Source of the DNA: Nitrosomonas mobilis
GTDB lineage: Bacteria; Pseudomonadota; Gammaproteobacteria; Burkholderiales; Nitrosomonadaceae
Direction: 5' to 3'
Assembly (NCBI RefSeq): GCF_900103035.1
Contig: NZ_FMWO01000044.1
Coordinates: 62,001 to 126,000, forward strand
Length of the DNA: 64,000 bases
How positions within the stretch are numbered: the first letter of the stretch is position 1; the number at the start of each line of letters is the position of its first letter. The translations under genes and the position numbers were made by a program. The notes under the pieces were generated by a model. The model ran no database searches. It worked only from the letters and a program-made list of their open reading frames with translations, and was not told where the DNA came from. Shown in pieces: positions 36,320-63,382 of the stretch.

Positions 36320-37708
36320 ATGAGAAAATTAGCACGTATATTGCTTGTTTTATTTGTTATTTCAACACTCTCGGGTTGCTTGTCGCCTATTGTGTTAAAC
36401 CGGGCAGTCGAAGTTTATGACGACGCTGCTATCCGTGCAGAATCTAAGCAACTTTTGATTAATATTGTTCGCGCCCGGCATCATGAGCCGTTGCATTTCA
36501 CAAGGGTTTCAAATATTGCAGCCACTTTCAGTTTTAGTGCGAATGCAGGGGCAACTCCTGCGCTGACAGGAGATAGTGGTAGTCTGTTGGCACCAATATT
36601 TGGAGGGGGCGTTTCAGAAAATCCTACTTTCAGCATTGATCCAATTTCAGGAGAAGAATTTACGAAACGACTCCTGACCCCATTCAGTCAACATAAGTTG
36701 ACCTTGTTACTTCGTCAGCACTTTGATGTTGACCTTATGTTGCGGATGATGGCGCAGGAACTGCGCTTGTATCACACGGAACAAAAAACTGCTATTCGCA
36801 ATAATCCAGGATCTGGGGAGCGAGGTCACCAGCGGCGCTTGCGCCATGGCTCAAAACAGAGACCTGTTTCTCCAAATATCTTGGATACAAAAAACCAGGA
36901 TATCTATTATCAACTTCCCGGCATTCAATTGACCCAAGAGCAGAAGCATCGCCAACGCAACCGGCAGCGCGCACATTTGCAACAAATCACCTATCATAAT
37001 AGCCCATCAGATCAAGATGGTTACGAGATGTTTCGTCGTGTCGCGCTCCATCTCTCAGCCATTCAAGATCAGAAAAAACTGTATGCTGAACCGTTGACAC
37101 TTGAGCGCAACTGGACTATACCTGCTGGTGCGGTTTCGACGGAAGGACTGTTTCAGGCCATAGAAAACGATTTTAGTGTGAATTACGACCAGCAAAAAGG
37201 CACGTATACGCTTAGCAAACAATTGTTGGGCCCTATTCTCATCACAAACTATGATCCAGATATACTCTGTTGTGAAGAGCGCGCAGAGTTATACGACTTG
37301 ATCAATCCCTGGATAGAAAATGATGTCGCTTTCGATATCAGACCAGGCTATCCTGGCGGTGAATGGCCAATAAGAGGCTCTTTCCGACTCAGAAGTTTCC
37401 ATACAATTCTCAACTTTATCTCTCATTCTCTGAGTGAAGAAGCAGAATATTACGTTGAGAAAGATCCGCGCACACCACCCATTGCCAGAGATGAGAATCC
37501 CAGCCATACCTTAGGGCTTATCATCGCAGATAAACTCCCGCCCGATGTTAATCTGTCCACTTATTTACATGGAAAATATTACGCAGTGGATACAACAGGG
37601 TCGCATTCCCACTGGAATCTTAATGCATTCCAATTACTCTACATCCTATTCAGATTGACGATCACTGACGCAAAATCTCTCGGTTTACCTATTACTATTT
37701 CCAAGTAA
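36320..37708 (+). CDS. Hypothetical lipoprotein
   Basis: I do not recognise the family. The 462-residue protein has a clear lipoprotein signal (MRKLARILLVLFVISTLSGC, lipobox LSGC), so the mature protein should be anchored in a membrane facing the periplasm. After it comes a stretch resembling an alpha/beta domain (LINIVRARHHEPLHFTRVSN). A basic, low-complexity linker (about 160-225: RRLRHGSKQR, QKHRQRNRQRAH) follows, then a C-terminal domain from about 230. No catalytic motif is visible. It stands alone, with an IS6-type terminal repeat 24 bases upstream. Confidence 0.75.
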   Translation: MRKLARILLVLFVISTLSGCLSPIVLNRAVEVYDDAAIRAESKQLLINIVRARHHEPLHFTRVSNIAATFSFSANAGATPALTGDSGSLLAPIFGGGVSENPTFSIDPISGEEFTKRLLTPFSQHKLTLLLRQHFDVDLMLRMMAQELRLYHTEQKTAIRNNPGSGERGHQRRLRHGSKQRPVSPNILDTKNQDIYYQLPGIQLTQEQKHRQRNRQRAHLQQITYHNSPSDQDGYEMFRRVALHLSAIQDQKKLYAEPLTLERNWTIPAGAVSTEGLFQAIENDFSVNYDQQKGTYTLSKQLLGPILITNYDPDILCCEERAELYDLINPWIENDVAFDIRPGYPGGEWPIRGSFRLRSFHTILNFISHSLSEEAEYYVEKDPRTPPIARDENPSHTLGLIIADKLPPDVNLSTYLHGKYYAVDTTGSHSHWNLNAFQLLYILFRLTITDAKSLGLPITISK

Positions 37709-37866: not shown

Positions 37867-38235
37867 ATGCGAACTAGCTTTTCCAAACAGATAAAGCCCT
37901 ATATTGAGGCAGAGCTTAACAAAGCGGCCTCGGCCAGATCGGCAAGTTACTATGACGAGGAGTTTTCCCACCTGGAACGAGCGCATGTTCTCGGACAAGA
38001 ATCAACTTATTGGCACGTCAAAGTGCATGTATTAATGTTGGCGTGGGCTGTTCGTAACCATGCCATTAAAGAATCGCTCGGGCAGGTTGTACGTACTATT
38101 GGTGCCGCGACGGTAACTGTACTGGGATTGATCCCATTGGGCAATACTGGTGGCAGCAATGTCAACCCATTTAAGAAAATGCCGATTGATCCGGAACTTG
38201 CCGCGCTCATTCACAAAGCCAAGGACGGGACATAG
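37867..38235 (+). CDS. DUF3703 domain protein
   Basis: The 122-residue protein matches the DUF3703 family: EFSHLERAHVLGQESTYWHV near 49, then VVRTIGAATVTVLGLIPLGN, with GGSNVNPFKKMPIDPELAAL at the end. The function of the family is unknown. AGGAG lies just before the start. A short hydrophobic stretch (ATVTVLGLIPLG) might touch a membrane but is too brief to be a clear span. Confidence 0.8.
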   Translation: MRTSFSKQIKPYIEAELNKAASARSASYYDEEFSHLERAHVLGQESTYWHVKVHVLMLAWAVRNHAIKESLGQVVRTIGAATVTVLGLIPLGNTGGSNVNPFKKMPIDPELAALIHKAKDGT

Positions 38236-38680
38236 CCAGGCGGTCATTGGAACCAGATAAAAATAAGACTTAAGCAGACATATTTTTTAATAAATTAAGT
38301 TAGTTGACATATTGGCAATATCTGTTTCCAACCCAGGCTGGGTGAAAACACCGAGAGTATTACAAATCATCGGCATGTAAAATGCTCGGCTAGCGGTGAA
38401 ATTGTCACTTACCGAGGTAAGCTCAACACACGCATTACCAGGGAAAAAGTAGGTACACTGCACAAACTGAGTTATAACTAAATCTAGTTAGTGTTTGAGC
38501 GGTTGAAAACTGGAGCAGGTGGGTTTATCCCAGTAAGGAACGCAGGATAAGCTGTCACACATATTTAGCGACTATACCCACCTGCAGATTTTATAAACTA
38601 GATTTGATCTAGCATCTTTTTAGGTCAGTGTTAATGGGTCGACTTCCTCACTATTCTGTGAAAAATAAATAAACTCTTTA
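38236..38680. other. Gap between DUF3703 gene and ferritin gene
   Basis: No gene I can support. A 10-base inverted repeat, GCAGGTGGGT (38515-38524) and ACCCACCTGC (38576-38585), brackets 51 bases, and AACTA-AATC-TAGTT lies just before it (38477-38490). This may be an old mobile element end or an RNA structure. Frames are full of stops. Confidence 0.45.
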
Positions 38681-39262
38681 CTAATCTTCCCGTTCACCCA
38701 GTTGCCTATCAATCATCAGCAATCCAGGAGCAGAATCTCCTATCATATTCAGTTGATCGACAACTAATTTAGTCGACATCAACTCCTCGACCTGCTCTGC
38801 CACAAAAAATTGTAGATAATTATGCGTTGCAGCATCTTCTACCTGGCCCGTTAATTTTATCAAGCGATTAATCATTTCCGTAACCTTCTGCTCATGTAGG
38901 TAAGCATCTTGAAATGCAGCCAAAGGGGACTCCCAATTACTAGGGGGCGCCTTGATGCCTGTTAGGACAACGCGACCGTCACGATCATGAATATAATCAA
39001 AGAATTTTATGGCGTGCTCAGTTTCTTCCTTTGCTTGCAAGCGCATCCAATGGGCGGCTCCGACCAAGCTTTTTGATTCAAAATAAGCAGCCATGGAAAG
39101 ATATAAGTATGCAGCATGTAATTCTGCATTAATCTGCTCATTTAAGGCTTTCTGCATTTTGCTATCCAGCTTTCCTACCTGGCTGGCCTCTTGCGCTTGA
39201 GCCGAAAAAATAAAAGCAACTAATAAAAAAATAGTACTCATAAATCTTAGTTTTTGCATCAT
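38681..39262 (-). CDS. Ferritin with a Sec signal peptide
   Basis: Four-helix ferritin of 193 residues whose first 24 residues form a signal peptide (MMQKLRFMSTIFLLVAFIFS, then AQA as cleavage site). The rest aligns with bacterial FtnA, and the ferroxidase ligands are all kept: Glu in NAELHAAYLY, Glu/His in AKEETEHAIKFFDY, Glu in YLHEQKVTEM and the pair in VAEQVEELMS. So it should oxidise and store Fe2+, but outside the cytoplasm. Most bacterial ferritins are cytosolic. It is divergent from the ArsR-type regulator gene across a perfect palindrome. Confidence 0.9.
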   Translation of the reverse strand: MMQKLRFMSTIFLLVAFIFSAQAQEASQVGKLDSKMQKALNEQINAELHAAYLYLSMAAYFESKSLVGAAHWMRLQAKEETEHAIKFFDYIHDRDGRVVLTGIKAPPSNWESPLAAFQDAYLHEQKVTEMINRLIKLTGQVEDAATHNYLQFFVAEQVEELMSTKLVVDQLNMIGDSAPGLLMIDRQLGERED

Positions 39263-39398
39263 GACCCCTTAGAGTTAGTTAACCGATTGTTAAAAATTAA
39301 GAAATTTTAATTCTATCCATTTATCTTATGTCAAAGCTTAGCAATTTGTTCAGTCTGGATAATAAAAAAGCACTGACGCTTACGTAGCATAAGCTGCT

Positions 39399-39414
39399 AT
39401 ACTAATATTAGTAT
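39399..39414. promoter_or_regulatory. Palindromic operator candidate
   Basis: ATACTAATATTAGTAT is a perfect 16-base palindrome, 22 bases before the ArsR-type start and between it and the divergent ferritin gene. AT-rich palindromes of this size bind ArsR-family dimers. TATAAG and GATAAT just after it could be -10 elements for the regulator gene. Confidence 0.7.
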
Positions 39415-39436
39415 AAGATAATAAGATAATATAAGT

Positions 39437-39736
39437 ATGCGCGATATGCAAAAAAATGTTCAAGCGGCATCGAAATTACTAAAGACGATGGCAAATACCA
39501 GTCGTTTGATGGTGTTATGTAACATTGTTAAGCAGGAACACACAGTTAGCGAGTTGGAAAAATTGATTGGTTTGAGTCAATCGGCGTTATCGCAACATTT
39601 GTCACGCTTACGCTATGAGGGTATTGTGGAATATAGACGTGAGGGGCAAAACGTTTATTATTCCTTGAAAGATGACAGTGTACGCCGTGTGCTGGAAGTC
39701 CTATATGACATCTACTGTGAAACTGATAATGAATAA
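39437..39736 (+). CDS. ArsR-family regulator, BigR/SqrR-like two-cysteine type
   Basis: The 99-residue winged-helix protein has the ArsR recognition region VSELEKLIGLSQSALSQHLS and a beta wing EYRREGQNVYYSLKD. It lacks the metal motif of ArsR/SmtB (ELCVCDL). Instead it has Cys28 (RLMVLCNIV) and Cys94 (LYDIYCETD), the two positions that form the disulfide or persulfide in BigR, SqrR and YgaV. I infer a redox or sulfide sensor. It probably represses itself and the divergent ferritin, and perhaps genes downstream. Confidence 0.88.
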   Translation: MRDMQKNVQAASKLLKTMANTSRLMVLCNIVKQEHTVSELEKLIGLSQSALSQHLSRLRYEGIVEYRREGQNVYYSLKDDSVRRVLEVLYDIYCETDNE

Positions 39737-40055
39737 CCAGTCAGGTGTGCCAAAGAGTGGTTACATGATTGAATCAATGACCACTACTACAGCGCATGAC
39801 ATTCTTGACGCACTCGATAGTAAAGCCCCTTCCATAGCCTCAACATGGAATGCTGTTTGCCTGGGAGTCACGGGAGGTACTAGCCAGCGTCGTACTGTAG
39901 CCATCCCGCAAATACCATCGCATAATGTGTTACTTGGGCAAAGTCCGGTAAATGAGTATGTCTCACCAAAATCGTCTATGCATAATATTCTTTGCATAAA
40001 AGTTAGAAAGGGAGCAACAGAACCATTAGGTTGGGAATATAGCGGAAGCTATTAA
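39729..40055 (+). CDS. Hypothetical protein, doubtful
   Basis: The 108-residue frame begins at ATG 39729, overlapping the regulator's stop, and runs MNNQSGVPKSGYMIESMTTT to a stop at 40055. No signal peptide, membrane span or family motif is visible. Composition is ordinary for a coding frame. It may be a real small gene in the operon or a chance frame filling the space before the next gene. Confidence 0.3.
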   Translation: MNNQSGVPKSGYMIESMTTTTAHDILDALDSKAPSIASTWNAVCLGVTGGTSQRRTVAIPQIPSHNVLLGQSPVNEYVSPKSSMHNILCIKVRKGATEPLGWEYSGSY

Positions 40056-40091
40056 ATTAAGATTGTTTTTAACTATTTAGGAGAAATGACC

Positions 40092-40685
40092 ATGATTGAT
40101 TCAAAATCCATAATTTCTACTGTTGTTAGTACTGTATTCGTTATTGCTATCTCTACTGTACCAACTATCTCATTAGCTGAAAGTGCTCAATCTTTGAATA
40201 AGAGTTTGATGCTAGCGCAGGTCCCTCAGCATGAACAAGATAAGGAAAGTGCACATGGTAGTCACGACAAGAGTAAAGAGGGGGATAGCAAGCACGGCGC
40301 CAAAAAACATGGCAGCATGAAGAAGGATAGGCCTGATTATGCCCATATGGTCATATCTCATTCAGACACATTAAAGCTCAGTAATGAGCAATTGGGGAAA
40401 ATCGTACGCCTGCACTTGAAACACGAGCAGGAACATAAAAAACTCAAAGCAGAATTGAAAAAAAGCATGAAGACCTTCAAAAAGGAAAGTATGAAACCCA
40501 GTACCAGTGATGCCCGTTTACGCGAAATCGGTAAGGATCAAACGAATGCTTTCAATGCAATGGTCGAACATCACATTACGGAGCGTCATGAGATTCATGC
40601 TGTTTTAACCACTGATCAAATCAACAAACTCAAAACAATGAAAATGCAACATTGTGATCAAGATAGTGAACATAATCATCATTAA
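40092..40685 (+). CDS. His-rich periplasmic LTXXQ-type protein (Spy/CpxP-like)
   Basis: The 197-residue protein starts best at ATG 40092 (AGGAG eight bases upstream; ATG 40086 would be only two bases away). It has a signal peptide (MIDSKSIISTVVSTVFVIAI) and a His/Lys/Asp-rich linker near 50-85. A long helical domain follows, with LTTDQINKLK near 180, the LTXXQ motif of the Spy/CpxP/ZraP group. The C-terminus ends in a His cluster (HCDQDSEHNHH). Such proteins are periplasmic chaperones or metal-binding stress sensors. Lies between the regulator and the His-rich peroxidase, which suggests a shared role. Confidence 0.82.
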   Translation: MIDSKSIISTVVSTVFVIAISTVPTISLAESAQSLNKSLMLAQVPQHEQDKESAHGSHDKSKEGDSKHGAKKHGSMKKDRPDYAHMVISHSDTLKLSNEQLGKIVRLHLKHEQEHKKLKAELKKSMKTFKKESMKPSTSDARLREIGKDQTNAFNAMVEHHITERHEIHAVLTTDQINKLKTMKMQHCDQDSEHNHH

Positions 40686-40686
40686 T

Positions 40687-40720
40687 TAAATTCCCTCGTT
40701 TCAAAGAGCGAGGGAATTTA
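40687..40720. repeat. Intergenic hairpin before the peroxidase gene
   Basis: Arms TAAATTCCCTCG (40687-40698) and its exact reverse complement (40709-40720) enclose a 10-base loop directly after the LTXXQ stop codon. No T run follows. It may act as a partial terminator or an RNA stability element between the two genes. Confidence 0.6.
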
Positions 40721-40757
40721 CCAATAAAAAGCTGTTGATATAAATTATGGAGGTGAC

Positions 40758-41945
40758 ATGAAACTTATTTTATTTCTCGCACTAATTTTAAGTGCCCAGG
40801 CATACGCTCAAGATGACAATAAAAACCTCGGTGCTTCCAAAGAACACCAGGAAAACCATGAGCAGGAAGAAGGCAAGCATGGCAGTGGTCACGATCATGG
40901 GAATAAGCATGAAGGAAGCAAACATGGAGACGACCACGGGCATAAAGGTGGCATGATGCAAGGCGGTGAGCATGGTCACAAAGGCGGTAAGCATGGTGGT
41001 GGTCATGGGGATGAGCATGAGGAAGGCAAGCATGGGGGTGGTCACGGGCATCATGACATGAACAACGTTAAGCAATTTTTTGAACCATTACCTGCATCAA
41101 TTATTGATGAAGAAGAGAATGCAGCCCTGATTAAGCTTGGCAAAATGCTGTATATGGATCCAAGGTTATCAGTCAATGACAAAATTTCCTGTAATTCCTG
41201 TCACGGACTCAACAATTTTGGCGTGGATAATGAACCCACATCTCCAGGCCATGAAGGTAAGCGTGGTGGTAGAAATTCTCCCACCACCATGAATGCGGCA
41301 CTTCATATTGCTCAATTTTGGGATGGACGCGCCAGAGATGTGGAAGAACAAGCTTTAGGCCCAATTTTGAATCCTGTTGAAATGGGCATGCCAAATAAAA
41401 GTGCTGTTGTAAAGAAAATACAAGCCATTGATGAATATCAGACACTATTTGCAGAAGCATTTAGTCAAGAAAAATATCCATTTAATTACAATAATATTGG
41501 TAAAGCGATTGGCGCTTTTGAGCGCACACTATTAACCCCTTCACGCTTTGATGATTTTCTTAATGGCGACGAAGATGCGTTGAATAAGAGTGAGAAAAGA
41601 GGCCTGAAAAAGTTTATGCATATGGGCTGTACCAATTGTCACAATGGTGTTGCATTGGGTGGCAACTCATACAAAAAAATCGGACTTGTTGAACCATATG
41701 AAACATCAGATATGGGTCGCTTTGAAGTGACTGGTCTTGAAAGCGACAAGAAGGTATTTAAAGTGCCGAGTCTACGAAATATTACTAAAACAGGACCATA
41801 TTTTCATGATGGTTCAGTTGAAACTTTAGATGAAGCAATTCAATTAATGGCAAAACATCAACTGGGTCTAGATCATGTCGGCCATGGGATGGTTAGAGAT
41901 ATCAAAGCATTCCTGGGGTCCTTGACGGGTAAAGACCAGTTATAA
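40758..41945 (+). CDS. Di-haem cytochrome c peroxidase with His-rich N-terminal extension
   Basis: Reduces hydrogen peroxide in the periplasm using electrons from cytochrome c. The 395-residue protein has a signal peptide (MKLILFLALILSAQAYAQ). A stretch of about 80 residues (20-105) follows, made largely of His, Gly, Lys, Glu and Asp in KHGGGHG-type repeats. Then comes a CcpA/MauG-like core with two haem sites: CNSCH (145-149) and CTNCH (291-295). PSLRNITKTGPYFHDGSVET near 335 is family-typical. The His-rich part is not usual for this family and should bind divalent metal. GGAGG lies upstream. Confidence 0.92.
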   Translation: MKLILFLALILSAQAYAQDDNKNLGASKEHQENHEQEEGKHGSGHDHGNKHEGSKHGDDHGHKGGMMQGGEHGHKGGKHGGGHGDEHEEGKHGGGHGHHDMNNVKQFFEPLPASIIDEEENAALIKLGKMLYMDPRLSVNDKISCNSCHGLNNFGVDNEPTSPGHEGKRGGRNSPTTMNAALHIAQFWDGRARDVEEQALGPILNPVEMGMPNKSAVVKKIQAIDEYQTLFAEAFSQEKYPFNYNNIGKAIGAFERTLLTPSRFDDFLNGDEDALNKSEKRGLKKFMHMGCTNCHNGVALGGNSYKKIGLVEPYETSDMGRFEVTGLESDKKVFKVPSLRNITKTGPYFHDGSVETLDEAIQLMAKHQLGLDHVGHGMVRDIKAFLGSLTGKDQL

Positions 41946-41946
41946 T

Positions 41947-41987
41947 TGAATGTGCAGACTGCACTACGTGTGCAGTCTGCACATTCA
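41947..41987 (+). terminator. Strong hairpin after the peroxidase gene
   Basis: Two 18-base arms (41947-41964 and 41970-41987) are exact reverse complements around a TACGT loop, starting two bases after the peroxidase stop codon. No T run follows, so a Rho-independent role is uncertain, but the position fits transcript end or 3' protection. Confidence 0.65.
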
Positions 41988-42349
41988 TTGCGTTATCTAC
42001 GAAAGCACCATGTCTGAAACGGCTTCCGGGATTCGCTCGACGTCGCGGGCACTGGCTCAGCTATACGCGCTTGGTTGCAGAAAAATCTTTCCCTATCGAT
42101 ATAGTAGCACCGTGGCGCGACAAGCAACCATTGACCGGCGGTATGGTGGCGCAGTGGCTACGAATGGAATCTACCGAACTTGCTTTCAGGAAGGGTCTCA
42201 ACCGGAAGTCCTCGATATTCACCTCCCCCAAACTGCGTAGCGGTCCAGGATTGCGGGTGACACTGTCAGCAGGAAGCACGCCATTGACGCGCTCCATCGT
42301 GTGCTCACAGCTTCACAGTCGCTTGATCTGGTAACAGTTGTAGGGTTTC
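41988..42349. other. Unidentified debris
   Basis: A plus-strand frame reads RLVAEKSFPIDIVAPWRDKQ followed by PLTGGMVAQWLRMESTE from about 42062, with no start and no family I can name. It precedes the NAD synthetase wreck and may be part of another broken gene. Confidence 0.35.
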
Positions 42350-43311: not shown

Positions 43312-43785
43312 TTATTTCTCAGTAGGAGTAGCACAAGGCTGCCGCAGCATTTTCCTAATGGCATCGGCATGCAGCTCCTCTTCCGCGATCAAAGTGCGGG
43401 CATATTCCTCCAACACCACCGATTTGCCTTGAGCCAATTCCAGTAGCTGATAATAAGATTTCAGTGCTGCATCCTCATGTGCAAGCGATTCGCGCAGAAT
43501 ATCACCAACCGGGATTGAACAAGCCAAACTGTTATCATGCTGGTGCGTCTCCAGTAACGGGCCGATGGCGAGCGAAGGATGTCCTTCCAGCAGAGTAACC
43601 AGCTCACCTGCCTTGCGGGCATGCAGCAATCCTTCCTCAGCTTGCTTGTTCAGCCATTCGACAATAGGAATGCGGCCATAGCCATAGACCATCAGGGCAT
43701 AGTGTGTATAACGCACCACGCCGGCGAGTTCAAGTTCCATGATCTGATTTAGTAAGGCAACCGCTTTATCTTTATCCAGATTCAT
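43312..43785 (-). CDS. Bacterioferritin-type ferritin-like protein
   Basis: The 157-residue protein has the bacterioferritin helix pattern: LLNQIMELELAGVVRYTHYA (ligand Glu near 18), AEEGLLHARKAGELVTLLEG (Glu and His near 51-54), LAHEDAALKSYYQLLELAQG and IAEEELHADAIRKML (Glu and His near 127-130). No signal peptide, so cytoplasmic, in contrast to the exported ferritin upstream. It stores iron or protects against Fe2+/peroxide chemistry. Lies 99 bases downstream of the peroxiredoxin gene on the same strand; cotranscription is likely. Confidence 0.85.
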   Translation of the reverse strand: MNLDKDKAVALLNQIMELELAGVVRYTHYALMVYGYGRIPIVEWLNKQAEEGLLHARKAGELVTLLEGHPSLAIGPLLETHQHDNSLACSIPVGDILRESLAHEDAALKSYYQLLELAQGKSVVLEEYARTLIAEEELHADAIRKMLRQPCATPTEK

Positions 43786-43884
43786 GTGTTTCTCCTTCTG
43801 TTATGTGGATAAGCTACCGAACACCACTCAATTTAAAATTGTCAATTTTCAGAAGCGCCCTGCAGTGAAACCATTGTTTGAGAT

Positions 43885-44487
43885 CTATAATTTATCCGCG
43901 TGCTGACTGAGATATTCCGCAACCCCTTCAGGACTGGCTTTCATACCGGCCTCCCCGCTCTTCCAGCCCGCAGGGCAAAGTTCACCGCGCTCCTCAAAGA
44001 ATTGCAGCGCATCGACCATACGCAACATCTCATCGACATCGCGCCCAAGCGGTAAATCATTAACTACTTGATGACGCACGATACCTTTCCTGTCGATCAG
44101 GAAAGAACCTCTCAGCGCAACATGATCTGGATGGCTTACCCCATACGCATTCATCACTTCCCCACCCAGATCCGATACCAGGGCGATATTGATCGGGCCG
44201 ATACCGCCCTGGGTTATCGGTGTATTACGCCAGGCATAATGCGTGAAATGAGAGTCCACCGACACGCCGATGACTTCGACGTTACGGCGCTGAAAATCTT
44301 TCGCCCGGTGAGAGTGGGCAATGATTTCCGACGGGCAAACGAAAGTAAAATCCAGTGGATAAAAAAACAATACTGCATATTTGTCGCGAATATGCGTATG
44401 AAAATTAAAATTTTCGTCGAAACTGCCATCAGGTAAAACAGCGGGCTTAGTAAAATCGGGAGCAGGATGAGTAACGAGTATAGACAT
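43885..44487 (-). CDS. 2-Cys peroxiredoxin (AhpC/TSA family)
   Basis: The 200-residue protein has the peroxidatic Cys in DFTFVCPSEI near residue 51 and the resolving Cys in GELCPAGWKSGE near 169, the typical 2-Cys pattern. The RGSFLIDRKGIVRHQVVNDL block is also standard. Cytoplasmic. Upstream of the bacterioferritin gene on the same strand, which suggests a joint peroxide/iron response. Confidence 0.93.
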   Translation of the reverse strand: MSILVTHPAPDFTKPAVLPDGSFDENFNFHTHIRDKYAVLFFYPLDFTFVCPSEIIAHSHRAKDFQRRNVEVIGVSVDSHFTHYAWRNTPITQGGIGPINIALVSDLGGEVMNAYGVSHPDHVALRGSFLIDRKGIVRHQVVNDLPLGRDVDEMLRMVDALQFFEERGELCPAGWKSGEAGMKASPEGVAEYLSQHADKL

Positions 44488-46741: not shown

Positions 46742-47366
46742 TTCTATCGGCATCGAACACTGTTCGCACTGCAACTGGTATATACATGATTGATGCGCGC
46801 CATCTTGGAGCGCATTGCCTCATAAAAAAGGTAGCCTGGACGAGTGAAAAAATGCGTTTCAATTGTCGCTCAATAGCTGCTTGATTGGCACCACGCTTGT
46901 CCATCGCTACTTTTTCAGACATATATTACTGTTTCTTGAAAAAAAGCATGACGGCTGCTTTATCACGCTTGACCGTCAATAGGAAATTAATGGTGTTTTC
47001 TTCTTTGTCGACAGCACGATAAAAGTATTCCCAGGCACTTTTGACTTTGATATAAGTCTCGTCCATACGCCAGCTTCTACCAACCGAGCGTTTATACTTT
47101 CTTCTGAAAATATTCTCCAATTTTGGTAGAAACCGGATCGCCCAACGGCTCGCTGTAGAATGATCTACAGATACACCACGCTCCTCCATCATTTCTTCCA
47201 GGTGTCGGCAACTTAACGGGTACGCCATGTACCAACGGATACAAACCAGAATTACCTCAATCGGAAATCGCATCCTTTTTACAATAAGCATGTAGCGTCA
47301 CCATCTCTTTAACGATCAACACGCTACACGAATGAATCGATGATCTCGCTTAATGCGACAGAACCA
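46728..47366 (-). pseudogene. IS6-family transposase remnant with terminal repeat
   Basis: Minus strand. The terminal repeat GGTTCTGTCGCATTAAG lies at 47349-47365. From 47291 a frame encodes FPIEVILVCIRWYMAYPLSC, HLEEMMEERGVSVDHST, WRMDETYIKVKSAWEYFYRA and VDKEENTINFLLTVKRDK of the IS6 transposase DDE domain. Two stops at about 46926 break it. Then EKVAMDKRGANQAAIERQ follows with the last catalytic region degraded. The far end is replaced by other sequence, so the element is dead. Confidence 0.85.
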
Positions 47367-57767: not shown

Positions 57768-58174
57768 CCTGCAATTTTCTGACGAACTATGACTGTTTAT
57801 TTTAGGGATGAATTCGTTTTTTACCTACACTATGCATGCTGATGGAAAATCAGCCAGCTATGCACGTCTGATGACTGATTTTTAATAAACTTAATTGGCG
57901 CATTCTCCGGAAAAATCCAATCCAATATTCTGCCTACCCCGGCAGAGAAACTTTATTATACTACTGATACCTGTCAAAACCTGTAAGCTGTGATCAGGTA
58001 ACTTCAGTAATGTATTTAGAGGTGCCCTTTATCTTTATTAGGCGGGTCCTCATTTTGGCCTGTTCATATCGAATCATTTCGTGTCGAAATACTGGTTCTA
58101 GTATAGCCATAAAATAGTTACCAATTGTTTACCGCTGTAACCATTCGTATCAAATCATACGTGAAAAAAATTTT
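57768..58174. other. Intergenic region upstream of dnaA
   Basis: The 407 bases before dnaA are AT-rich and must hold the dnaA promoter. I see no exact DnaA box and no gene. rpmH and rnpA, which lie here in many bacteria, are absent. Confidence 0.5.
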
Positions 58175-59566
58175 ATGCTGAAAATAGAACCCTTCTGGCA
58201 TGATTGTCTAGCGCAGTTCGATCAGGAATTGAATAGTCAGCAATTTAATACCTGGATTAAGCCATTGCGGCTGGAAACCTCGCCGGAAGATGAAAATACC
58301 CTGATATTGATCACACCCAATCGTTTTGTTCAGCAATGGATTCGTGATAATTTCATGAGTCGTATCGAACAAATCGCGCAGCAATATTTCTGTCAGGAAG
58401 TATCACTCAAGCTTGTGCTGGATAAAAATAGTAAGGATCAGCCGGTAATCAAACCTGATCCAGCGTCGAATCACGCAAAAACAAAAAAAATAAATGCCAC
58501 GATAGCCGCCCGCAAGTCTCCTGCTAAATTAATCAAAAAAGCGGATAACAGTTTCCTGAATCCTGCTTTTAATTTTGATACCCTGGTCACTGGCAAGGCT
58601 AACCAGCTGGCGCGCGCAGGAGCACTACAAGTTGCGGATCGCCCAGGCATTGCCTACAACCCCTTGTTCATTTATGGCGGGGTCGGTTTAGGGAAAACTC
58701 ATCTGATTCATGCCATTGGAAATCAGGTACTGCATTTAAATCCGGTTGCCAAAATACGTTATGTTCATGCCGAAAAATATGTTTCGGATGTGGTCAATGC
58801 GTATCAACACAAATCATTTGACAAATTCAAGTCTTATTATCATTCATTGGATCTGCTTCTCGTAGACGATGTGCAGTTTTTCAGCGGTAAAAACCGTACT
58901 CAGGAAGAATTCTTTTATGCATTTAATGCATTGGTAGAAGCACACAAGCAAGTTATTATCACTTCCGATTGTTATCCTAAGGAGATTAGCGGACTGGAAG
59001 AACGACTGGTCTCAAGATTCGGCTGGGGATTAACCGTCGCCATTGAGCCGCCTGAACTGGAAATGCGAGTAGCGATTTTGTTGAAGAAAGCGCAGGCTGA
59101 AAAAATGAGGCTCGATGAAAATACGGCTTTTTTTATTGCCAAATATATTCGCTCCAATGTTAGGGAGTTGGAGGGGGCACTTAAACGCGTGTTAGCTTAT
59201 TCCTGTTTCACTAATCTGCCCATTTCTCTGGAACTTGCCAAAGAGGCATTGAAGGACTTGCTGGCCGTTCAAAACCGGCATATTTCAATTGAAAATATCC
59301 AGAAAACTGTAGCCGAATATTACAAAATCAAACTCACCGATATGTTCTCCAAAAAGCGTACCAGGATTATTGCCCGTCCTCGTCAGATTGCAATGGCGGT
59401 TGCTAAGGAACTGACCCAGATGAGTTTACCGGATATCGGTGAAGCCTTTGGCGGCAGGGATCACACCACGGTATTGCACGCACATCGTAAAATCATGGAA
59501 TTACGTTTATCTGACGCTGCTATAAGTCGGGATTTCAACGCACTGCTGCATATCCTGCGTGGTTGA
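58175..59566 (+). CDS. dnaA: Chromosomal replication initiator DnaA
   Basis: Binds oriC and loads the helicase. The 463-residue protein has an N-terminal domain (to about 85), a basic linker, the AAA+ domain with Walker [11 protein letters not shown] (near 170) and Walker [10 protein letters not shown], and the DNA-binding domain IV with [15 protein letters not shown] near 430. The linker is Lys-rich. Full length. The adjacent dnaN and the DnaA boxes mark the origin. Confidence 0.98.
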
Positions 59567-59768
59567 CACTTCTCTGTGCAGAAGCTGTATAGATTGTGGA
59601 TAACTACGGTTATATCCGATAACAATATTTTTATCCACAATTTATCAATAGACTATACATTGTTTATACCGCTGTTAGATGTATGTTAATACTTTGATAA
59701 TAAAATGAATTAATTTTTATACCGTATTTAGTGTTACCTTATTAACTATTATTATTCTTTTTAACTTA
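59567..59768. other. Candidate replication origin (oriC)
   Basis: Two perfect DnaA boxes TTATCCACA: one on the minus strand at 59595-59603 (TGTGGATAA on plus) and one on the plus strand at 59631-59639. An AT-rich tract (59640-59768) follows and could be the unwinding element. Location between dnaA and dnaN is typical of many bacteria. Confidence 0.7.
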
Positions 59769-60893
59769 ATGAAATTATCAATAACGGATCTCAATCTTTT
59801 ACTCAAACCACTTCAGATGGTCAGTGGTGTCGTAGAGCGACGACAAACGATGCCCATCCTGGCAAACACATTGATTGAAATCGGTGATGGAAAGCTGAAA
59901 TTGATTACCTCAGATATGGAAATCGAAAGTGAAGCCACTTCTTCCAGCGAAGAATTAATCGTTACCGAACCATTGCATACCACGGTACCGGCGAGAAAAC
60001 TACTGGATATTCTGAGAGCGCTACCGAAAAATGCTTCACTCGAACTGAGTAAACAGGAAAACCGTTTGCTGATTATTTCAGGAAAAAGCCGTTTTCATCT
60101 TCAATTATTACCAGCAGAAGCGTTTCCACGGATGCACCGAGAAGTGGAAAGTGAAAAGATTTCTTTTACGTTAACTCAAAAAAATCTGAAAAAACATATA
60201 CAGATTGCCATCCATGCTATGGCTCAGCAAGATTTGCGTTACTATTTGAATGGCATGATTTTTGCAGTAGAAGCAGACCGATTAACTTTAGTAGCGACAG
60301 ATACTCGTCGCTTGAGCCTTTCCGGTATATCATTGAATCAGCAATTTGACAAAAGCGCCGCGATCCTACCGCGTAAAGCGGCACAAGAACTGGTTCGTCA
60401 ATTGGAAGACAGTGATGCGCCAGTGACGATTGAAATAACTTCTAAAATTTTCCGCTTCATTTTTCCGGAAGCAGCGTTGACATCCAAAACCATTGCTGGA
60501 AACATTATTGACTACAAGGCCGCTCTTCCTAAGGAACGAAATTATCAATTCTCAGTGAATAGAATAGAATTTCTCTCAGCACTCAAAAGATTGGCGATCA
60601 TATTTAACCAGAGTGACCCTTTTCATAACGTCCGGTTCAAGCTTGCTGATAACGCAATCCTTCTGTCCGTTGCTAATCTGGAACATGAAGAAGCCAGCGA
60701 GGAGATTGAAACCAGTTACCAGCTTGATCCTATCGATACTGTATTCAACATATTGTTATTTATAGAAATTCTTAATGATATGGGCTCAGATTTCATTGAA
60801 TGTTCATTTGAAGAAACTCATGAAGGCCGACTATTAATTACCGCACCAAATGAAAACGATTTCCTGCACATCCTGATGCCGATGAAAAGGTAA
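59769..60893 (+). CDS. dnaN: DNA polymerase III sliding clamp (beta subunit)
   Basis: Forms the dimeric clamp on DNA. The 374-residue protein begins MKLSITDLNLLLKPLQMVSG and shows the three-domain clamp pattern: VVERRQTMPILANTLIEI near 20, YLNGMIFAVEADRLTLVATD near 158 and a C-terminal ending in LHILMPMK. Follows dnaA with the DnaA-box region between them. Confidence 0.97.
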   Translation: MKLSITDLNLLLKPLQMVSGVVERRQTMPILANTLIEIGDGKLKLITSDMEIESEATSSSEELIVTEPLHTTVPARKLLDILRALPKNASLELSKQENRLLIISGKSRFHLQLLPAEAFPRMHREVESEKISFTLTQKNLKKHIQIAIHAMAQQDLRYYLNGMIFAVEADRLTLVATDTRRLSLSGISLNQQFDKSAAILPRKAAQELVRQLEDSDAPVTIEITSKIFRFIFPEAALTSKTIAGNIIDYKAALPKERNYQFSVNRIEFLSALKRLAIIFNQSDPFHNVRFKLADNAILLSVANLEHEEASEEIETSYQLDPIDTVFNILLFIEILNDMGSDFIECSFEETHEGRLLITAPNENDFLHILMPMKR

Positions 60894-60949
60894 ATAACAT
60901 ACCGATTCAGCAAATTTCATTTTTTAATTAAATAAAGTGAACCCTGTAG

Positions 60950-63382
<2,433 letters not shown>

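Follow-up and report, generated by a model that had tools for sequence, protein, structure and literature searches.

We analysed a stretch of 64,000 nucleotides of the Nitrosomonas mobilis genome (assembly GCF_900103035.1, contig NZ_FMWO01000044.1, forward-strand positions 62,001 to 126,000; hereafter the window), in which a gene for a non-haem ferritin lies back to back with one for an ArsR-family regulator at 38681 to 41945, and the regulator is followed by the remains of a sulfide:quinone oxidoreductase (SQR) gene, a gene for an LTXXQ protein and one for a di-haem cytochrome c peroxidase. An earlier note on this DNA had read the four intact genes as a periplasmic iron/peroxide buffering module. 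All the parts that it described were recovered: a ferritin that looks exported and whose ferroxidase residues are retained, a two-cysteine regulator similar to BigR and SqrR, an exact palindrome between the divergent genes, an LTXXQ protein with a His-rich N-terminal region, and a peroxidase with a His-rich stretch after its signal peptide. It had missed the SQR remnant and two perfect hairpins. The features are as follows.

38681..39262, minus strand: non-haem ferritin gene, 193 residues with its signal peptide (Pfam PF00210)
39194..39262, minus strand: predicted Sec signal peptide of the ferritin, residues 1–23, with a putative cleavage site between AQA and QE
39398..39415, no strand: perfect palindrome of 18 bp, TATACTAATATTAGTATA, between the ferritin and ArsR genes (exact)
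39437..39736, plus strand: ArsR regulator of the BigR/SqrR/HlyU type, two cysteines, 99 residues (profile search and structure alignment)
39744..40040, plus strand: C-terminal remnant of an SQR gene (tblastn)
40086..40685, plus strand: LTXXQ (Spy/CpxP-like) protein with a predicted signal peptide and a His-rich N-terminal region (PF07813)
40687..40720, no strand: perfect hairpin with 12-nt arms and a 10-nt loop in the gap between the LTXXQ and peroxidase genes, a possible terminator or attenuator
40758..41945, plus strand: di-haem cytochrome c peroxidase, 395 residues, haem motifs CNSCH and CTNCH (Pfam PF03150; PDB 6qkn, 1iqc)
40812..41069, plus strand: His/Gly/Lys/Glu-rich extension of the peroxidase after its signal peptide, about 85 residues with 18 His
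41947..41987, no strand: perfect hairpin with 18-nt arms and without a T run, directly 3' of the peroxidase stop codon (hairpin scan)

The ArsR regulator and the genes downstream of it

Cys28 and Cys94 of the ArsR protein line up with the cysteines of chain 13ct_A, which we take to be SqrR, and the protein scores 94.7 bits against the NCBIfam equivalog model sulf_sens_BigR, below that model's cut-off of 155. Close homologues (E ≤ 1e-25, 69–82% identity) were found in six of 85 Nitrosomonas genomes, namely that of the window, which is included in the 85, and those labelled here G019, G115, G114, G015 and G112. This count comes from a genus-wide search with ArsR itself, and so avoids the bias of finding G115 and G112 through SQR. 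SQR adjoins ArsR at all six loci, as a gene in four (in one of them running off the contig) and as a remnant in two. Because the relatives of this ArsR sit at SQR genes, sulfide or persulfide would be its signal, and persulfide sensing is what we infer for it.

The remnant in the window lies directly 3' of the ArsR stop codon and matches residues 315–411 of the 422 residues of the G019 SQR (tblastn E = 1e-21, 52% identity), itself a match to sulfide-quinone reductases of solved structure (3sz0, E = 6e-142). This segment does not contain a complete FAD-binding and catalytic region, as a functional SQR would. Homology of the window to G019 and G115 extends over 39403–39736/39739 and picks up again at 39737, with approximately 970 bp more between these points in G019. 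An open reading frame at 39672–40055 was rejected as a separate gene because it contains the remnant. The G019 SQR was matched in 22 of the 85 genomes at E ≤ 1e-20, the remnant being the only match in the window's own genome, which elsewhere (contig C28) has a Blh-SQR fusion with another ArsR.

The gene orders at the other five loci are as follows. G019 and G115 have an MMPL gene that diverges from ArsR, SQR, a YgaP-like membrane segment (YgaP_TM) and the peroxidase, in that order. G015 has MMPL diverging from ArsR and SQR, where MMPL and SQR are both cut by contig ends and the completeness of SQR is not visible. G112 has ArsR, SQR, YgaP_TM and LTXXQ with a different divergent gene and, in the whole genome, no peroxidase of the close clade. 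G114 has an MMPL remnant diverging from ArsR, an SQR remnant (residues 398–417), YgaP_TM and a peroxidase that is 88% identical to that in the window. A complete SQR therefore stands beside ArsR in G019, G115 and G112, a peroxidase lies downstream in the window, G019, G115 and G114, and an LTXXQ gene does so in the window and G112. Since the usual order in relatives is MMPL diverging from ArsR-SQR-YgaP_TM, with the peroxidase or LTXXQ to follow, we regard the arrangement as a sulfide-type cassette. The losses are at least partly separate events, as residues 315–411 are kept in the window and 398–417 in G114, and of these two only G114 retains YgaP_TM.

Linkage was also counted in 42 neighbourhoods, a non-random set comprising the window, 20 regions from each of two homologue searches and the ferritin locus of a second genome (L002, the reverse of G114:C422:1-9108); the peroxidase locus of that genome, on G114:C224, is outside the count. 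Pairs within 3 kb of one another were ArsR-SQR, SQR-LTXXQ and LTXXQ-peroxidase (five neighbourhoods each), SQR-peroxidase (four), and ArsR-peroxidase and ArsR-MMPL (three each). The ferritin had a cassette gene within 3 kb in a single neighbourhood, that of the window.

BigR and SqrR belong to persulfide-responsive operons (PMC7315123). A dithiol ArsR at SQR genes is common to those operons and to the Nitrosomonas relatives, which carry SQR together with the YgaP-like membrane segment, whereas the window differs in that its ArsR is below the BigR cut-off, its SQR is a remnant, and a peroxidase and an LTXXQ gene are attached. Neither the four-gene set nor an ArsR-SQR-peroxidase cassette was evident in the literature, judging by titles and the openings of abstracts. 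A more usual-looking BigR-type operon is present on C28 of the window's own genome (G000:C28), with genes for a metallo-beta-lactamase protein, ArsR, Blh-SQR and TauE; the names TauE and persulfide dioxygenase are our own reading. Approximately 6 kb from that operon is a second peroxidase of the same clade (L111). A peroxidase and a BigR-type ArsR are 3–12 kb apart in G013, G043, G052 and G055, and in G034 the genes found 2 kb from the peroxidase are Blh-SQR and TauE-like ones, with no BigR-type ArsR.

The peroxidase was identified with high scores (PF03150, E = 2e-55; CCP_MauG domain, 187.9 bits against a cut-off of 25.6) and has two CXXCH haem sites. Assignment as MauG itself was rejected, the score of 148.4 bits comparing with a TTQ_mauG equivalog cut-off of 443.85. 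It shares its core and both CXXCH motifs with other bacterial di-haem cytochrome c peroxidases (1iqc, 6qkn) and differs from them by the His-rich extension after the signal peptide, which is common to the Nitrosomonas clade and is of above-median length in the window. The close clade (E ≤ 1e-109) was found in 46 of 61 genus genomes. N-termini were compared for the 30 best loci and the own paralogue on C28, with L026 left out as it is cut by a contig end and L027 measured from further upstream. At least seven His follow the signal peptide in 29 of the 30, the median being 42 residues with 10 His, versus 85 residues with 18 His in the window; the paralogue has three His in this region. The His-rich segment is widespread in the genus. 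Metal buffering by the segment is a plausible prediction. In the G114 peroxidase (L222 11751-13013, G114:C224) the His-rich stretch is longer still and has internal repeats.

The LTXXQ protein scores 33.1 bits against PF07813 (gathering cut-off 24.3), and a match is present in 26 of 101 relatives, the own genome included. It has the PF07813 domain in common with Spy, CpxP and ZraP-like proteins and differs from them by its His/Lys-rich N-terminal region and by its context, being within 3 kb of SQR in 5 of the 42 neighbourhoods and of the peroxidase in 5, both counts including the window. The hairpin that follows its gene has no T run and was not among the terminator-like elements called.

The ferritin and its predicted signal peptide

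The ferritin matches PF00210 with E = 4e-39 (134.1 bits against a gathering cut-off of 24.5) and has 3kx9_A as its best PDB chain (E = 5e-50). Alignment to that chain showed that the ferroxidase-type residues E, EExxH, HE and EQxEE are retained, and these presumably act as ligands. The protein thus shares the ferritin domain and ferroxidase-type residues with the Archaeoglobus-type/FtnA ferritins (3kx9, 1s3q), from which it differs by its signal peptide, so that, judged by its sequence, it does not class with them as cytosolic. Its N-terminus, MMQKLRFMSTIFLLVAFIFSAQA followed by QE, is Sec-like, and the ferritin appears to be exported; it probably oxidises and stores Fe2+ outside the cytoplasm. 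The literature showed no evident account of a bacterial ferritin that is periplasmic or exported, as far as titles and abstract openings tell, and the location of this protein bears on whether bacteria can store iron in ferritin outside the cytoplasm.

The ferritin was found in 1 of the 101 relatives searched and in two of the 85 genus genomes, the window's own and G114. More broadly, matches at E ≤ 1e-10 were present in 23 of 369 class-sample and 41 of 398 phylum-sample genomes, the own genome included. In the search that gave the loci L002–L018, the homologues other than the Nitrosomonas pair were 38–53% identical to it. A scan of 69 ferritin loci, covering all class-sample loci and the 30 best of 48 phylum-sample places (with one of two neighbouring genes taken in G376), found a clear signal in the two Nitrosomonas copies only. 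The scan also flagged L143, through a TTG read-through, but a Met stands right in front of the ferritin domain there and the locus was not counted. Plasmid matches comprised 48 records, all below 60% identity, and in the one examined (H4) the annotated gene begins at the ferritin domain. In the flanks of the ferritin loci L002–L018 there was no match to SQR, LTXXQ or the peroxidase, and one weak match to ArsR (30%, L003, approximately 5.5 kb away). A partnership of ferritin and peroxidase in other ferritin genomes was rejected on the basis of these flanks.

The ratio of non-synonymous to synonymous substitution rates (dN/dS) between the two Nitrosomonas ferritins is 0.21 over 193 codons, 0.365 in the first 30 and 0.177 in the rest, which indicates that the gene has been kept and that the signal has been kept too, though somewhat less strictly. 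We consider it very unlikely that the protein is not exported, either because its hydrophobic N-terminus remains as an anchor or because translation begins downstream. Most ferritins are cytosolic and the export of this one is predicted from sequence alone, both of which speak for this alternative; yet AAGGGG directly precedes the two ATGs at the upstream start, FIFSAQAQE is unchanged in the second species, and the first possible start after the signal is Met36, already within the ferritin domain.

Origin of the locus and competing explanations

The locus probably consists of two pieces with separate histories that would have been joined in a Nitrosomonas chromosome: a sulfide cassette of patchy distribution, now partly decayed, and an unusual ferritin that appears to be exported. 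The first piece, to the right of about 39403, would be the depleted sulfide-response cassette. In its fuller form elsewhere, with an MMPL exporter diverging from ArsR, SQR, YgaP_TM and a His-rich di-haem peroxidase or LTXXQ protein, persulfide would form and cause the dithiol ArsR to let go of its promoter, sulfide oxidation would fall to SQR, the peroxidase would use electrons from cytochrome c to remove H2O2 in the periplasm, and the LTXXQ protein would be a periplasmic stress or metal-binding chaperone; these protein roles, and lateral transfer of the genes, are what we infer. In the window SQR is reduced to its C-terminal stub and YgaP_TM is lost, with ArsR, LTXXQ and the peroxidase intact. 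The second piece is the signal-peptide ferritin, in the place where several relatives have MMPL (G019, G115, G015, in which the gene is cut, and G114, in which it is a remnant).

The palindrome bears on how the pieces meet. The exact sequence is present in one of the six ArsR promoters, that of the window, the best other matches having 4–5 mismatches, and it was therefore rejected as a conserved ArsR operator. It is unique in its own genome at up to three mismatches, a reversed control pattern giving five matches per strand. G019 and G115 share another palindrome, of 14 bases, in the ArsR promoter, and TTGACA is found in the ArsR promoters of G019, G015, G115 and G114 and is absent from those of G112 and the window. 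As homology to G019, G115 and G114 starts inside the window palindrome (39403–39405), the palindrome seems to straddle the junction of the ferritin and ArsR sides, although the homology to G112, which starts at 39398, weakens this point. It could have arisen as a side effect when the two sides were joined, or it could be an operator that is new here.

Several observations weigh against the decayed-cassette reading. The palindrome is unlikely to have arisen by chance; it is the sole perfect palindrome of at least 18 bases in the window, and only 18 of 5000 shuffles of the intergenic stretch that kept its dinucleotides gave one as long. ArsR is conserved (dN/dS 0.11 versus G019) and may therefore still regulate something. 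The trace of LTXXQ in G019 is only 41 nt. Composition says little on foreign origin, since the G+C fraction of 0.41 in the bins at 38001–42000 is matched at 58001–62000 (0.41–0.42). Most pertinent is the distribution of the ferritin: the two genomes with the ferritin also belong to the six of 85 that have the close ArsR, for which the chance is 0.0042 if the two genes are independent, and they are the two with an SQR remnant, none of the other four being known to have lost SQR. This co-occurrence favours a functional or transfer link over mere adjacency. In G114 the ferritin and the ArsR-peroxidase genes are on different contigs, so that the ferritin adjoins ArsR in the window only, and the 8-kb 5' flank of the G114 ferritin has none of the cassette genes. 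However, each of these contigs stops less than 0.7 kb from the gene in question, approximately 0.5 kb from the ferritin, on its 3' side, and 0.6 kb from the peroxidase, with no overlap between the ends, so that the two genes may be adjacent there.

The sharing is not accounted for by close kinship: a GyrB tree of 21 chosen genomes separates the window genome from G114 by strongly supported branches, so that the two are not sisters, and the other carriers are scattered in it except for the pair G019-G115. The window GyrB is nearest to those of G038, G103, G012 and others (82–84%), with G114, G019, G115, G015 and G112 at 78–80%. Joint lateral transfer, selection, or chance with two genomes remain as explanations, and a functional tie between the ferritin and the depleted cassette is possible.

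One form of such a tie would be that, after SQR was lost, ArsR and the peroxidase were kept to serve with the exported ferritin, so that the sensing of sulfide or redox state would be coupled to the storage of iron and the removal of peroxide outside the cytoplasm. This is consistent with the purifying selection on ArsR, with the palindrome lying where the two sides meet, 136 bp ahead of the ferritin start codon, and with both non-sister ferritin genomes having a close ArsR beside a peroxidase and a lost SQR. We nevertheless regard it as unlikely: two genomes are few and a shared transfer could produce the same pattern, the gene divergent from ArsR in G114 is an MMPL remnant with the ferritin on another contig, the TTGACA of relatives is missing from the window promoter, and no promoter-like site was called in 39263–39436, although the scan as a whole gave fewer sites than shuffles did (7 versus a mean of 11.3). 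The broader proposition, that in two unrelated Nitrosomonas lineages a bacterial ferritin has acquired a Sec signal, holds iron outside the cytoplasm and has an ArsR of the persulfide type and a periplasmic, His-rich peroxidase as its partners, the sulfide oxidase having been discarded and a sulfide cassette thus turned into an extracytoplasmic iron/peroxide set, seems to us quite improbable. The single-locus module of the earlier note, in which ArsR would act on a shared palindrome and the His-rich segments would deliver metal, is highly improbable. Its genes are adjacent, its palindrome is rare, and G114 has the ferritin, the close ArsR, the peroxidase and LTXXQ relatives; but as a neighbourhood the four genes were found in the window alone, the relatives of ArsR are at SQR, the palindrome is confined to one promoter, a perfect hairpin separates LTXXQ from the peroxidase, and the His-rich segments belong to the clade at large. 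What stands of that module is its parts, the exported look of the ferritin and the co-occurrence in G114, and what does not is the recurrence of the neighbourhood and the conservation of the palindrome.

The locus consists of known kinds of parts, one odd gene and one unexplained association, and this reading replaces the four-gene story with two testable points. One is that 6 of 85 Nitrosomonas genomes carry the ArsR cassette, with an SQR that is present or a remnant and, in four of the six, with the peroxidase, the members lost differing between genomes; the other is that a ferritin with a conserved signal is present in two of these genomes, both of which have lost SQR.

Surroundings of the locus

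The window is part of contig C61 of a 3.08-Mb genome and is taken to be chromosomal because dnaA-, dnaN- and gyrB-like frames, named by reading their translations, are present at 58–63 kb. A truncated transposase of the IS240/IS6 type at 46926–47291 (PF13610 positions 2–50 of 139) points to earlier rearrangement in the vicinity. Another ferritin-like protein, this one without a signal peptide, is encoded beside a peroxiredoxin C-like gene at 43312–44487, 1.4 kb past the peroxidase, and neither of the two 20-region homologue sets has a homologue of either gene. On the other side, a DUF3703 protein (PF12487) is encoded at 37867–38235, between the ferritin and a gene at 36320–37708 for a 462-residue protein with a lipoprotein-like N-terminus. 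The latter has no Pfam match, nor does its G019 homologue, and it is within 3 kb of SQR or the peroxidase in 6 of the 42 neighbourhoods, including the window.

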